Part shown: piece after piece, positions 7,826 through 11,667 of the stretch
Layout: the number at the start of each line of letters is the position of its first letter
Position numbering within the stretch: position 1 is the first letter of the stretch
Assembly: GCA_017515985.1 (NCBI GenBank)
Contig: JAFWDV010000014.1
Coordinates: 1-64,000 of the forward strand
Source of the DNA: Clostridia bacterium
GTDB taxonomy: Bacteria; Bacillota; Clostridia; TANB77; CAG-508
Length of the DNA stretch: 64,000 nt
Reading direction: 5' to 3'
Program-made: the position numbers and the translations under genes
The notes under the pieces: generated by a model
The model's input: only the letters and a program-made list of their open reading frames with translations
The model's database searches: none
What the model was told of the DNA's origin: nothing

Positions 7826-8035
7826 ATATTCCTCCAATACAAATAAAAATAGCTCAAATAGTAGTAAAAAATAGATTTTTAACGACTATCCATAATAATA
7901 TAATGAAATTGAAAATTTGTAAATATTTTGGGCGAGAGTTTATGAAAAAAATGTTTTTTATTGGTAGATAAAAAATATAAAATATGTTATACTAACTATG
8001 AAATATTTAATAAACGAAAAGGTGTGTGAATTATA

Positions 8036-8311
8036 ATGACTTTTGAATTTGCAAAATATCCTGATGGGACATTGGGAGTTTTTTCTAATATAGGAAAAAA
8101 AGAAAATGGAGAAGAATTTATTAGAGTTACTTTTGAAAGACCAATGGAATATGGATTTGATACTTATGTAATTGAGCTTCCAAGCTATAAAATTGTTTTA
8201 GAAGATGGAAATTATTCTGACGAAGAAAAGAAAAAATTTATGGATATAGCCAAAAATGGAGCTTCTTTTTTCTTTAAATATGCACGATTAGGAGGTTTAG
8301 AAATTGCCTAG
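8036..8311 (+). CDS. Hypothetical protein next to a DUF4160 remnant
   Basis: The 91-residue acidic protein (start MTFEFAKYPDGTLGVFSNIG) is led by AAAGGTG. It has no signal or membrane segment. The strand-rich N-terminus followed by a charged helix (DGNYSDEEKKKFMDIAKNG) could be a small alpha/beta fold. Its TAG overlaps the TTG start of the following DUF4160 remnant, so the two were probably an operonic pair. DUF4160 genes often sit beside a small partner such as DUF2442; this protein does not clearly match DUF2442. Function is unknown. Confidence 0.65.
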   Translation: MTFEFAKYPDGTLGVFSNIGKKENGEEFIRVTFERPMEYGFDTYVIELPSYKIVLEDGNYSDEEKKKFMDIAKNGASFFFKYARLGGLEIA

Positions 8312-8580
8312 TATTTTTGAATTGAAACGGATATAAAATTTATTTTTGGACAAATGAAAATGATGAACCAATACATGTACATATTTCAAAGGGGGTTCCA
8401 ACAGTAAATGCAACTAAAGTATGGTTAACTCAATCAGGTGGTTGCATACTTTGCCATAACAAAAGCAAAATACCTGAAAAAGAATTGAATATTATTTGCG
8501 AAGATATTTCTTTACATTATTTTCAAATTGTTGAAATGTGGAAAGCAATTCATTCGGGTAATATTAAATTTTATTGCTAA
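8304..8580 (+). pseudogene. DUF4160-like gene with a +1 frameshift
   Basis: From TTG 8304 (AGGAGG upstream) the reading is LPSIFEL and then stops after three more codons. Shifting by one base at about 8325-8330 (GAATTGAAACGG) restores GYKIYFWTNENDEPIHVHISKG and an open frame to TAA 8578-8580. That reading includes TKVWLTQSGGCILCHNKSKIP and ends KFYC, the pattern of Firmicutes DUF4160 proteins. Total length is 277 bp, one base over a multiple of three. The simplest view is a one-base insertion inactivating a roughly 91-residue gene; a sequencing error in the short A-run is possible. Confidence 0.7.
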
Positions 8581-8724
8581 TTTTCCTGAACTATTCCTGA
8601 ACTAAAATAATGTAACTTTAATCTAAAAGCAGAAATATAGGAAGCTTGTCTTTCTAGGTGTTCATTGGATGTACACTGCATCGCTATCCTGCCTTTAGAG
8701 AGTTAATAGAAAGGAGATGCTTTT

Positions 8725-9582
8725 GTGGTAGATTTAGAATTATATAGGATTTTTAAAATTGTAGCTGATGAAGAAAATTTAACAAGAGCAAGTGAGATAC
8801 TAAGTATTTCACAGCCAGCAGTTACAAAACATATTCATAATTTGGAAAATGAATTGGAATTAAAATTATTTGATAGAACGAAGTATGGGATGAAATTAAC
8901 TTCAGATGGAGCCGAAATCTACAATCAGATAAAGGATGCTATAAATATTTTGGTTAATGTTGAAAATAGCATAAAGCAAAACAAAAAATTAAATTTGGGA
9001 ATTCATACAAATATGCCTAAAGAAATATATAGAGCTATAATCGCAAAATTGAAAGAGAATAATGCTAGTATGGAAGTTGCAATAGAGAAAAGTCCTACTG
9101 AAGATATGTTTTCAAAACTTGAAAAACAAGAGATTGATGCATATCTATCAAAGAAACAGCCAGAGAACGTACATAGCGAATTTATAAAATTTATTAAATT
9201 AGGATTTTTTCATGATGATTTCTTTGTTAATAGCGGTTCACAGTTTTTAGAAAAAAATGTTATTAAAGAAGATAACGAAGTTACTATATATACGTTAAGA
9301 AGTATATCAAGTACAAGTAAAAATTTAGAAAATATATTAAAAGAAAATAACTGCAAAAATGTAAAAATTAAGAATGCGACATTTAACACAATTATTGAGG
9401 AAATGCAGAATAATGATATAATTGCATATATAACCGAGGAATATATAAAAGACGAATTAGAAAATGGTAAAATAAAGAGATTAGATTTGAAAATTGAATC
9501 TCCGGTGGGCGAGTATGGAATTTATTACAATTCTAATAATCAAATAAAGAATGTTAAGAAGATTTTTAATACTATAAAATAA
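8725..9582 (+). CDS. LysR-family transcriptional regulator
   Basis: The 285-residue product has the LysR winged-helix N-terminus: FKIVADEENLTRASEILSISQPAVTKHIHNLENEL, then LKLFDRTKYGMKLTSDG. A periplasmic-binding-like effector domain (about 90-285) follows, diverged and lysine-rich. GTG 8725 follows AAGGAG. The gene is monocistronic with a terminator downstream; no divergent target gene is present on its left, which is unusual for LysR loci. The effector cannot be predicted. An approximately 140-bp leader upstream can fold so that the RBS is partly paired. Confidence 0.9.
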   Translation: MVDLELYRIFKIVADEENLTRASEILSISQPAVTKHIHNLENELELKLFDRTKYGMKLTSDGAEIYNQIKDAINILVNVENSIKQNKKLNLGIHTNMPKEIYRAIIAKLKENNASMEVAIEKSPTEDMFSKLEKQEIDAYLSKKQPENVHSEFIKFIKLGFFHDDFFVNSGSQFLEKNVIKEDNEVTIYTLRSISSTSKNLENILKENNCKNVKIKNATFNTIIEEMQNNDIIAYITEEYIKDELENGKIKRLDLKIESPVGEYGIYYNSNNQIKNVKKIFNTIK

Positions 9583-9590
9583 TAGCTAAT

Positions 9591-9636
9591 ATGAGCATGA
9601 AGTATAACCTAAAGTTATATCTTATGCTCATTTTTG
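9591..9636 (+). terminator. Terminator after the LysR gene
   Basis: ATGAGCAT (9591-9598) pairs with ATGCTCAT (9624-9631), with an inner TATAAC/GTTATA stem, and is followed by TTTTT. Confidence 0.7.
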
Positions 9637-9672
9637 TATTTTACATAATATACAGCTGCTGTTACAATATAT

Positions 9673-9694
9673 TTATCAGCTAGATAGCTGATAA
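9673..9694. promoter_or_regulatory. Perfect 10-bp inverted repeat, candidate operator
   Basis: TTATCAGCTA-GA-TAGCTGATAA is a perfect palindrome with a 2-bp centre, 35 bp upstream of the alpha-CTD protein start. The short centre fits a dimeric regulator site better than an RNA hairpin, and no T-run follows. The cognate regulator is unknown. Confidence 0.5.
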
Positions 9695-9729
9695 GTACAT
9701 TGAAAAAATAAATACAGGAGGAAATGATT

Positions 9730-10683
9730 ATGAAACTTAGTGAATTGTACACAGCACTGCAGGAGCGGTATCCTATAGTGCAAGAGGAAAAGTTGGCAGC
9801 TGAAAGAGAGCGCAGAGAAGAATTAAAAAACGAAATTACAAGACTAATTAATCTCTGCACACAGGCAATTGAAGATTCGAAGGAAAAACTGTATGAGGCT
9901 TATGTGAATGCACGAGAGAAACAGGAAGAACTGCAAAATGAACATGCTGAAGATTGTAAGAGAAATCCGTATATGGCGCAAATAAGGTTTGATATATGTC
10001 ATGACTATATTGACTGCCATTTAGATATTGCTGAATACAATTATATCGGTTCAACACATGTTTATATTGGTCGTTATTTCTTTACATTGGATAGGATTAA
10101 CCGAAAACACGTAAAATCTGATATAGAGGGGCGTTTAGCAAGTATTCTTACATCGTACTGTGTTGATCATTGTACAATAAAGTTTACATCAGATGTAACG
10201 TTTTACTTGATTAACAATGAAATAAGCGTGTATATTTTGGCAAAGCACGATTGCACTGGATTTTTCTCAAAAAAAGAATGTGCGGCTGTGGAAAAATTCA
10301 TTTCAGATGTTAAAGAAATGTTTCCGAATTCTAAAGAAATTTCTAAGCCCGAAACAAATGAGCATGAAAAGTGGCTTACTATTACTTTGGATTGTTCAGA
10401 AATGGATATTTTTAGCAATTGGCAGTCTGCGAAGAATTCTGAGGATAATTCGAACACCGCTAAACAGAGCATGGAAGAAAACGAATTATTTGAAATGTCT
10501 ATTGATGATTTGGGTTTAAGTCCTAGACCATTAAATTGCTTAAAGCGTAGAAACATATCTACAGTTGGCGAACTTGTGCAGTTATCAGCAGAAGAAGTAA
10601 AAAACACGGAGATGATTGGCGCAAAAAGTTTTTCTGAGATTGAGCAGAGGTTAGAAGAGCTCGGAATAACATTGAAGTCATAA
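9730..10683 (+). CDS. Uncharacterised protein with a C-terminal RNA polymerase alpha-CTD-like domain
   Basis: The 317-residue product begins MKLSELYTALQERYPIVQEE; ATG 9730 is 8 bp after AGGAGG, whereas ATG 9724 is too close. Residues about 15-85 are a long charged coiled coil. Residues about 90-215 form an unrecognised domain. The last 65 residues (SIDDLGLSPRPLNCLKRRNISTVGELVQLS, then GAKSFSEIEQRLEELG) closely follow the alpha-CTD of RpoA, with its helix-hairpin-helix that binds UP-element DNA and activators. No alpha-NTD is present, so it is not RpoA. Base composition (about 38% G+C) is above its neighbours. It could bind DNA or polymerase-associated factors; this is inference. Confidence 0.75.
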   Translation: MKLSELYTALQERYPIVQEEKLAAERERREELKNEITRLINLCTQAIEDSKEKLYEAYVNAREKQEELQNEHAEDCKRNPYMAQIRFDICHDYIDCHLDIAEYNYIGSTHVYIGRYFFTLDRINRKHVKSDIEGRLASILTSYCVDHCTIKFTSDVTFYLINNEISVYILAKHDCTGFFSKKECAAVEKFISDVKEMFPNSKEISKPETNEHEKWLTITLDCSEMDIFSNWQSAKNSEDNSNTAKQSMEENELFEMSIDDLGLSPRPLNCLKRRNISTVGELVQLSAEEVKNTEMIGAKSFSEIEQRLEELGITLKS

Positions 10684-10716
10684 TCAATCTAATTTGAAAT
10701 CTTGTAAAATTTTGAG

Positions 10717-10750
10717 ATGCACGCTCCTGATTGGGGCGTGCATTATTACA
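10717..10750 (+). terminator. Hairpin after the alpha-CTD protein gene
   Basis: ATGCACGCTCC (10717-10727) pairs with GGGGCGTGCAT (10733-10743), a strong GC-rich stem with loop TGATT. The T-tract is weak (TATTACATTT). Confidence 0.6.
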
Positions 10751-10821
10751 TTTATGCTCAAATACTAAAGTAATATTTTTATATTAGATTCATAAAATTA
10801 GAAAAGATAAGGAGTAATTTT

Positions 10822-11667
10822 ATGAAATTTAAGGAAAATCTAAAAAATAAACCAGTTTTTATTGGACTTTGCTCAATGATGATATTTATTATTACTTTTT
10901 CATTTTGTGTATCAAAGCAATTTGACAATAAAATTAAAAATGTTTCAGCTAGTGTAAAAGAAGAATTTATGAGCTTAAGCAACAAAAAAATAGGCTGGGG
11001 AATAAAAAGAGCAAATAATCATTTTCAGCCAGATGTGGGCTCTGAAAATAAAAGAATTATGGATAAATATAACGGATTTTGCTTAGGAAGTAATGATAAA
11101 AAATACTTGTATTTAACTTTTGATGCTGGATATGAGGCAGGATATACAGAAAAAATTTTAGAAATTTTAAAACAAAATGATGTTAAAGCTACTTTTTTTA
11201 TCACAGGGCACTATCTTAATACACAGCCAGATTTGATTAAAAAAATGATAGAAAATGGTAATACGGTGGGAAACCACACGGTTAATCATAAAAGTATACC
11301 GGATATCGACCTAGATACACTTAAAAACGAAGTTATGAAATTGCATACAGCTGTATATGAAAAGTTTGGATATGAGATGAAATACTTTAGACCTCCAAAA
11401 GGTGAGTTTAGTGAAAGAACAATAAGCTTTACAAATTCGTTAGGATATACCTCTGTAATGTGGTCTTTGGCTTATGATGACTGGGATGAAAACAAGCAAG
11501 GAAGAGAAGAATATGGAAAAGCTAAAGTGCTTGAAAATCTTCATAACGGAGCAATAATTCTTTTGCATTCTACATCAAAAGATAACAGCAATATACTTGA
11601 TTTTATTATAAAAGAGGCGAAAAAAGAAGGATATGAATTTAGATCTTTAGACGAATTTGAAAGGTAG
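10822..11667 (+). CDS. pdaA: Polysaccharide deacetylase, PdaA-like
   Basis: The 281-residue NodB-fold deacetylase has an N-terminal membrane anchor or signal (residues 11-30). The lead-in GWGIKRANNHFQPDVG is characteristic of PdaA, which deacetylates muramic acid during delta-lactam formation in spore cortex. Motifs seen are TFDAGYEAGYT (99-109), NHTVNHKSIP with the metal-binding His pair, RPPKGEFSE and a C-terminal LLHSTS. Length and motifs fit. It begins a run of sporulation genes (yqfC and yqfD follow within a few bases). Expression under a mother-cell or forespore sigma factor is expected from family knowledge, not read from the promoter. Confidence 0.85.
   Translation: MKFKENLKNKPVFIGLCSMMIFIITFSFCVSKQFDNKIKNVSASVKEEFMSLSNKKIGWGIKRANNHFQPDVGSENKRIMDKYNGFCLGSNDKKYLYLTFDAGYEAGYTEKILEILKQNDVKATFFITGHYLNTQPDLIKKMIENGNTVGNHTVNHKSIPDIDLDTLKNEVMKLHTAVYEKFGYEMKYFRPPKGEFSERTISFTNSLGYTSVMWSLAYDDWDENKQGREEYGKAKVLENLHNGAIILLHSTSKDNSNILDFIIKEAKKEGYEFRSLDEFER

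Follow-up and report, generated by a model that had tools for sequence, protein, structure and literature searches.

In RNA polymerase, DNA is contacted by the C-terminal domain of the alpha subunit (alpha-CTD) through the residues of the 265 determinant, and the N-terminal domain (alpha-NTD) dimerises and assembles beta and beta'. Two residues of the determinant, R265 and N268, are critical for DNA binding (PMC11434276). Almost nothing was found in the literature on alpha-CTDs that are orphaned or fused to other proteins. One described case is PglW of type-2 BREX, a kinase and nuclease defence protein of 1400-1600 aa that carries an alpha-CTD-like domain (PMC12839542). Another is the 210-aa protein QDP42789.1 of Bacillus phage vB_BmeM-Goe8 (L101:1959-2591), which is annotated as 'RNA polymerase subunit alpha'. 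Only an alpha-CTD is matched in it (4.3e-22), and its N-terminal domain is unrelated. Most phage and plasmid matches that we opened were complete rpoA genes whose records were mislabelled or chromosomal, and the Goe8 protein was the only real orphan among them. Orphan alpha-CTDs are already known from phage Goe8, PglW and routine annotation. What is new in the gene described here, within the material searched, is its architecture and its context in a family of cargo proteins.

The gene lies at 9730-10683 on the plus strand of a 64,000-nucleotide stretch of DNA from a Clostridia bacterium (contig JAFWDV010000014.1, positions 1 to 64,000; hereafter the window). Its frame is open over 9724-10683, which corresponds to 319 aa from the first ATG. 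The second ATG at 9730 is better placed, 8 nt from an AGGAGG ribosome-binding site (9716-9721, plus strand) that is conserved as GGAGGAAA in the relative G175, and yields a protein of 317 aa. Residue numbers in the following are those of the 319-aa reading. A Pfam search with this reading gave a single confident domain, RNA_pol_A_CTD (PF03118), which covers residues 249-312 (10468-10659, plus strand) and model positions 4-67 of 67 with an E-value of 3.7e-19 and a score of 68.6 bits, the cut-off being 23.8. Sequence matches in the PDB are all alpha subunits, the best one being the alpha-CTD of B. subtilis (1z3e, E 1.6e-11). No alpha-NTD was detected in Pfam and NCBIfam profile searches, and the NCBIfam rpoA models match the last ~95 residues only, far under their cut-offs. 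Since the alpha-NTD is absent, the protein is not expected to take part in polymerase assembly. It is also encoded away from the ribosomal-protein gene cluster typical of RpoA; the true rpoA is on contig C17, close to a ribosomal S11 gene. The NCBIfam search additionally returned NF033442 (PglW). The likeness to PglW consists in a non-polymerase protein with an alpha-CTD-like domain, but the remainder of PglW does not match. The Goe8 protein likewise ends in an alpha-CTD that follows an unrelated N-terminal domain; it differs in being phage-encoded, its N-terminus bears no resemblance and no coiled coil was seen in it.

A structural model was predicted with AlphaFold2 from the single sequence. 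Although the model as a whole is of low quality (mean pLDDT 47.5), the alpha-CTD part reaches a pLDDT of mostly 70-81 and superimposes on 1z3e with 0.9 Å over 66 columns (Foldseek; TM 0.94 by target length). The structural comparison with RpoA that the original prediction had suggested as a check thus gave the same fold. When the domain is aligned with the RpoA of E. coli, B. subtilis and the host and with the other orphan domains, the 265 determinant proves complete, its seven residues R265, N268, C269, G296, K298, S299 and E302 (E. coli numbering) all being retained. Among the orphan domains compared, a complete determinant was otherwise seen only in L044 (both domains, ~1060 aa), L045 and L049. 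Because the determinant is complete, a DNA-binding role of the 317-aa protein is plausible; the original prediction had offered it as conjecture, and it gains in plausibility here without changing in kind. The domain shares with the RpoA alpha-CTD its fold, its length, the seven residues and a preceding polar linker. It differs from RpoA by the missing alpha-NTD, by Gly at the position of E261, by changed 287-determinant positions and by the fused coil and middle domain. The Gly at position 261 and the altered 287 region make it less likely that contacts to sigma region 4 or activators are kept, and these contacts may be lost. The domain is acidic (pI 4.5) and shares 43% identity with the B. 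subtilis alpha-CTD and 40% with the RpoA of its own genome.

Residues 1-80 (about 9730-9963, plus strand) are predicted to be mostly coiled coil, residues 21-80 forming one long helix in the AlphaFold2 model. They are followed by a putative alpha/beta region (10036-10407, plus strand) rich in Cys and His, with seven of each in residues 81-228, and by a polar linker of low pLDDT (10408-10467, plus strand). For the middle part (about residues 105-228) no family match was obtained, and the model has a pLDDT of 20-45. The original prediction had described exactly this layout, an orphan alpha-CTD joined to a coiled coil and a middle domain free of motifs in a frame that lacks the alpha-NTD, and it is borne out in each of these parts. 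It had further proposed to look for the N-terminal part in other contexts. Apart from the coil homologue in G175 described below, only matches at chance level were returned for residues 1-239 or 1-247 from overlapping samples of 292 family, 290 order, 399 phylum and 391 class genomes, and no homologue from phages or plasmids. Scans of the genome and of viral contigs with peptide patterns of the N-terminal and middle region found nothing either. Foldseek matches of the middle-domain model to YbjN and DesK-like proteins were dropped (E 0.03 or worse, model pLDDT 39). The weak matches L008-L013 were dismissed as unrelated proteins matching by coil or composition. A phage family with the motif 'MGLD...HSDCDG' (phrog_19831; L006/L007) aligns to residues 147-225 with 21.7 bits in phmmer, as one pair picked from hundreds of genomes, and with an hhalign probability of 62%; the PHROG models themselves give no match, and the similarity is regarded as no more than a lead.

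The alpha-CTD gene is the last of three genes of an accessory island of ~2.9 kb (7963-10821, right edge approximate at 10813-10855), which is inserted at the 5' end of a pdaA-like polysaccharide deacetylase gene (10822-11667, plus strand; PF01522, 1.3e-34). The first gene encodes 91 aa (8036-8311, plus strand) without a Pfam or PHROG match, and a 93% identical protein is found in an element of the relative G125. The second one encodes a LysR-type regulator (8725-9582, plus strand; Pfam HTH_1 1e-17, LysR_substrate 6.5e-7) with homologues of 67-80% identity in G125, G150, G175 and G223. The alpha-CTD gene had been described as lying alone, which applies to its transcription but not to its surroundings. 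A LytTR regulator gene immediately precedes pdaA in most relatives. In nine relatives (L065, L067, L068, L069, L071, L072, L080, L081 and L082), pdaA or its 5' half adjoins a divergent LytTR response regulator or histidine kinase; only the 5' half stands beside the regulator or kinase in G163, G187 and G125. Homology of the regulator-pdaA intergenic region to the relatives ends at 7951, and that of the pdaA coding region resumes at 10889. In G125, pdaA is split by a serine-recombinase element of 10 kb. The window is homologous to this element from 7963 onward, and the stretches 7963-8590 and 8617-9669 match it at 91.6% and 81% nucleotide identity, respectively. A sequence that is probably a remnant of the original pdaA start (ATGAAAAAAATGTTTTTTATTGG; 7942-7963, plus strand) aligns with the pdaA starts of G163 and G125, and TTTTTATTGG, as read from the sequence, recurs at about 10855-10864 in the intact pdaA. 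At the same site in G150, a LysR gene and a different cargo, namely a 354-aa protein and a histidine phosphatase, precede an intact pdaA. Many copies of the family of the 91-aa protein (8036-8311) occur across the genus, for example in G093, alone, at 91% nucleotide match, and on contig C4 of G000.

The pdaA-like gene is interrupted near codon 156 in four relatives (L094 in G163, L095 in G187, L096 in G125 and L097 in G199). The intervening elements measure 4.3-10.4 kb and carry a large serine recombinase, and the halves of the gene, continuous apart from the insertion, abut at an AAYCATAC-like core. Elements that interrupt sporulation genes are known for sigK (skin), spsM (SPbeta) and gerE (gin) (PMC5595907). 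The pdaA elements resemble them in the way the gene halves meet, and on excision these halves should be joined again. The recombinase is encoded in two frames in each of the four elements, with a joint at ...TAT CTT CGG AAG TGT... (L094, ~4090; L096, ~10035; L097, ~9780; L095, reverse strand, ~4165), and a shift of +1 behind CTT would yield NEVYL-GSVVGRK. Since this joint is conserved in four elements, it suggests programmed +1 frameshifting rather than decay. The first half of the recombinase in L095 is broken further.

The slot behind the LysR gene is variable. The same LysR gene, terminator and promoter were found in the three relatives G125, G150 and G175 with different cargo behind them. 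Homology ends at 9669 (against G125) and 9668 (against G150), which is the end of the -10 box TACAAT, and past this box both relatives carry the pair of the 354-aa protein and the phosphatase. In G175, which represents a sister species, the LysR gene lies at another site and is followed at equal distance by a gene for a 197-aa protein (L113:916-1509, minus strand), the leader of which is common with that of the alpha-CTD gene (ATAAGTACATTGAAA...GGAGGAAA.GATTATG). The first 80 residues of the two proteins can be aligned, with a Z of 5.0 for the coil and of 4.5 for the first 45 residues; none of 1000 block shuffles reaches the score, and the reversed-sequence control gives a Z of 0.4. The middle regions are not alignable (Z -0.3, no score above shuffles), and pairwise local comparison gives low scores (7.6 bits in phmmer, E 0.13 in blastp) that do not exceed those of the best shuffles. 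The coil is biased in composition, and the homology rests jointly on leader, position and co-linearity. The 197-aa protein ends before any alpha-CTD. Consequently, we propose that the alpha-CTD is a variable end module of a LysR-linked family of coiled-coil cargo proteins, to which the 317-aa protein belongs by position, leader and ~80 N-terminal residues. The domain was either gained in the 317-aa protein or lost in the G175 member, and it probably represents a DNA-binding module that was swapped in.

No third member of the cargo family emerged when the two-member alignment A2 was used as a search profile. Another protein with the same N-terminus and an alpha-CTD was absent from well over 1,000 genomes sampled from the family, order, class and phylum, and from the phages and the plasmids. 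The original prediction had named the lack of any homologue with the same architecture as a finding that would speak against it and, taken literally, this is what the searched samples show; without a full-architecture orthologue, conservation provides no evidence for a functional fusion. Since an N-terminal homologue without alpha-CTD exists and orphan alpha-CTDs are common, however, the architecture reads as a recent fusion rather than an artefact.

The LysR gene ends in a terminator hairpin with a T run (9591-9636, plus strand; ATGAGCAT...ATGCTCAT followed by TTTTTG), and a similar hairpin is located at the equivalent place in G125, G150 and G175. It is followed by a candidate promoter, a consensus match of the form TTTACA-17-TACAAT with an upstream TG (9640-9668, plus strand), and by the inverted repeat TTATCAGCT-AGAT-AGCTGATAA (9673-9694, plus strand), which folds with -10.4 kcal/mol (z -3.2). 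Behind the alpha-CTD gene, an intrinsic-terminator-like hairpin is recognizable in the sequence (10716-10744, plus strand). The palindrome and the terminator that had been assigned to the gene are therefore both present. The -10/-35 region does not belong to this gene alone but is common to relatives with other cargo. The palindrome starts 5 nt past the predicted -10 box and should hence form the 5' end of the mRNA. In G175, G150 and G125, dyads with a 4-nt centre but other arms (ACAGCA/TGCTGT, AAGGT/ACCTT) lie right behind the -10 box. All 4/4 sequences can form the five inner pairs, three of which are changed on both sides, a covariation that is suggestive given four sequences only. As pairing rather than sequence recurs in the relatives, an RNA hairpin at the 5' end, e.g. 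a stabiliser, is likelier than an operator. The palindrome had been considered as a binding site of the protein itself, which is not favoured: the arms are not conserved while the dyad recurs at its place, and a second perfect copy is absent from the genome, the nearest one having two mismatches.

The GC content of the alpha-CTD gene is 35.4% compared with 23-29% in its neighbours, so that the composition, said to deviate slightly, deviates by more than that. CGN codons account for 7/16 arginines in contrast to 1/43 in the comparison set, which comprises the five neighbouring downstream genes only (Fisher p 2.3e-4). This codon usage supports acquisition of the gene and, together with the island and the variable cargo slot, agrees with the acquired unit originally suggested.

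When PF03118 was searched for in 98 relatives, 18 genomes were found to encode orphan alpha-CTD proteins above the cut-off in addition to rpoA. These proteins number about 28, four of which belong to this genome, and have frames of 73 to about 1,070 codons; free-standing copies are thus numerous within a single bacterial order. Those of which the whole sequence was read include a family of short proteins (~150-190 aa) and proteins with a sigma-region-4-like HTH and one to three alpha-CTDs. The short orphans (L045, L049, L051, L053) and the sigma-region-4-like tandem proteins (L050, L054) resemble the 317-aa protein in having an alpha-CTD without alpha-NTD and a patchy, accessory distribution. 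The other orphans of genus and family differ from it in their unrelated N-terminal regions, and several lack some DNA-contact residues. With one alpha-CTD and no HTH, the 317-aa protein is also distinct from the tandem type as seen in L054. Three proteins of 560-670 aa (L054:1100-2932, L050:1646-3346 and L060:1702-3717) carry coils and two or three alpha-CTDs beside a sigma-region-4-like HTH, which was tested with Pfam in L054; this group, scattered over the bacterial family, looks like uncharacterised transcription-related accessory proteins. In L044, two alpha-CTDs follow an N-terminus that reads like a DEAD-type helicase. A 174-aa frame of an Anaerolineales metagenome-assembled genome (L099:2740-3264, JAIXKJ010000008.1) joins ribosomal protein bL31 (PF01197, 2.7e-25) to an alpha-CTD-like domain (PF03118, 6.6e-9). 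An alpha-CTD outside the polymerase is ordinary in the group of the 317-aa protein; its N-terminal partner is not.

With moderate confidence, we regard the 317-aa protein as island cargo, a coiled-coil accessory protein with a functional alpha-CTD as DNA-binding module. In this view the gene is variable cargo of the accessory island that LysR marks at the pdaA-like locus, and would be expressed from the LysR-associated promoter, although control by LysR is suggested by gene order only. The N-terminal coil would hold the protein together, probably as a dimer or oligomer, and paired alpha-CTDs on flexible linkers could grip the minor groove of AT-rich, UP-element-like DNA. The middle domain may sense or recruit something. 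In this way the protein would modulate transcription locally or bridge DNA. Oligomerisation, DNA binding, LysR control and an effect on transcription are all inferred.

Alternatively, the protein could be a decoy or competitor that soaks up factors binding the alpha-CTD (Spx-like proteins, phage regulators or activators) and so protects or disturbs host transcription, with no need for DNA binding. We consider this unlikely, even though the domain is slightly nearer to the B. subtilis alpha-CTD than to the RpoA of its own genome, orphan alpha-CTDs are accessory genes in the group as expected in phage-host conflict, and BREX PglW has such a domain as well (PMC12839542). A pure decoy does not require the seven DNA-contact residues kept here, and the coil and middle domain are left unexplained. 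Moreover, Leu occupies the position of B. subtilis Y263, an Spx contact.

The domain could also serve as a generic helix-hairpin-helix (HhH) fold for nucleic-acid binding or protein interaction in a non-transcriptional protein, e.g. in mobile-element DNA processing or defence. The wide reuse of the alpha-CTD, with a helicase-like protein (L044), a sigma-region-4-like HTH (L054) and ribosomal protein L31 (L099) as partners, would fit such a role. Nevertheless, we deem it doubtful: the alpha-CTD match is far above that of any other HhH family, which identifies a true alpha-CTD, the whole 265 determinant is kept, and no enzymatic or defence family was matched by the remainder in the Pfam, NCBIfam and PHROG profile searches. 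A chance or decaying fusion, in which recombination joined the alpha-CTD to unrelated cargo with no selected function, would agree with its occurrence in one genome only, despite well over 1,000 genomes, phages and plasmids searched, and with the G175 protein that has no alpha-CTD, but is highly improbable in view of an intact 317-codon frame with ribosome-binding site, promoter, 5' hairpin and terminator and of intact key residues and fold.

Returning to the 317-aa protein as cargo with a functional alpha-CTD, we tentatively put forward a wider possibility. The LysR/promoter slot might hold a polymorphic coiled-coil protein, the C-terminal part of which is exchanged between strains and is an alpha-CTD here; such a modular diversion of a promoter-reading domain might steer or block host transcription on behalf of the island. 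The alpha-CTD is normally studied only inside RNA polymerase, whereas at this locus it is an optional end-piece on a cargo protein. The relative without this tail permits a direct test of what a borrowed alpha-CTD may do outside the polymerase, either on UP-like DNA or by intercepting alpha-CTD-dependent regulators.
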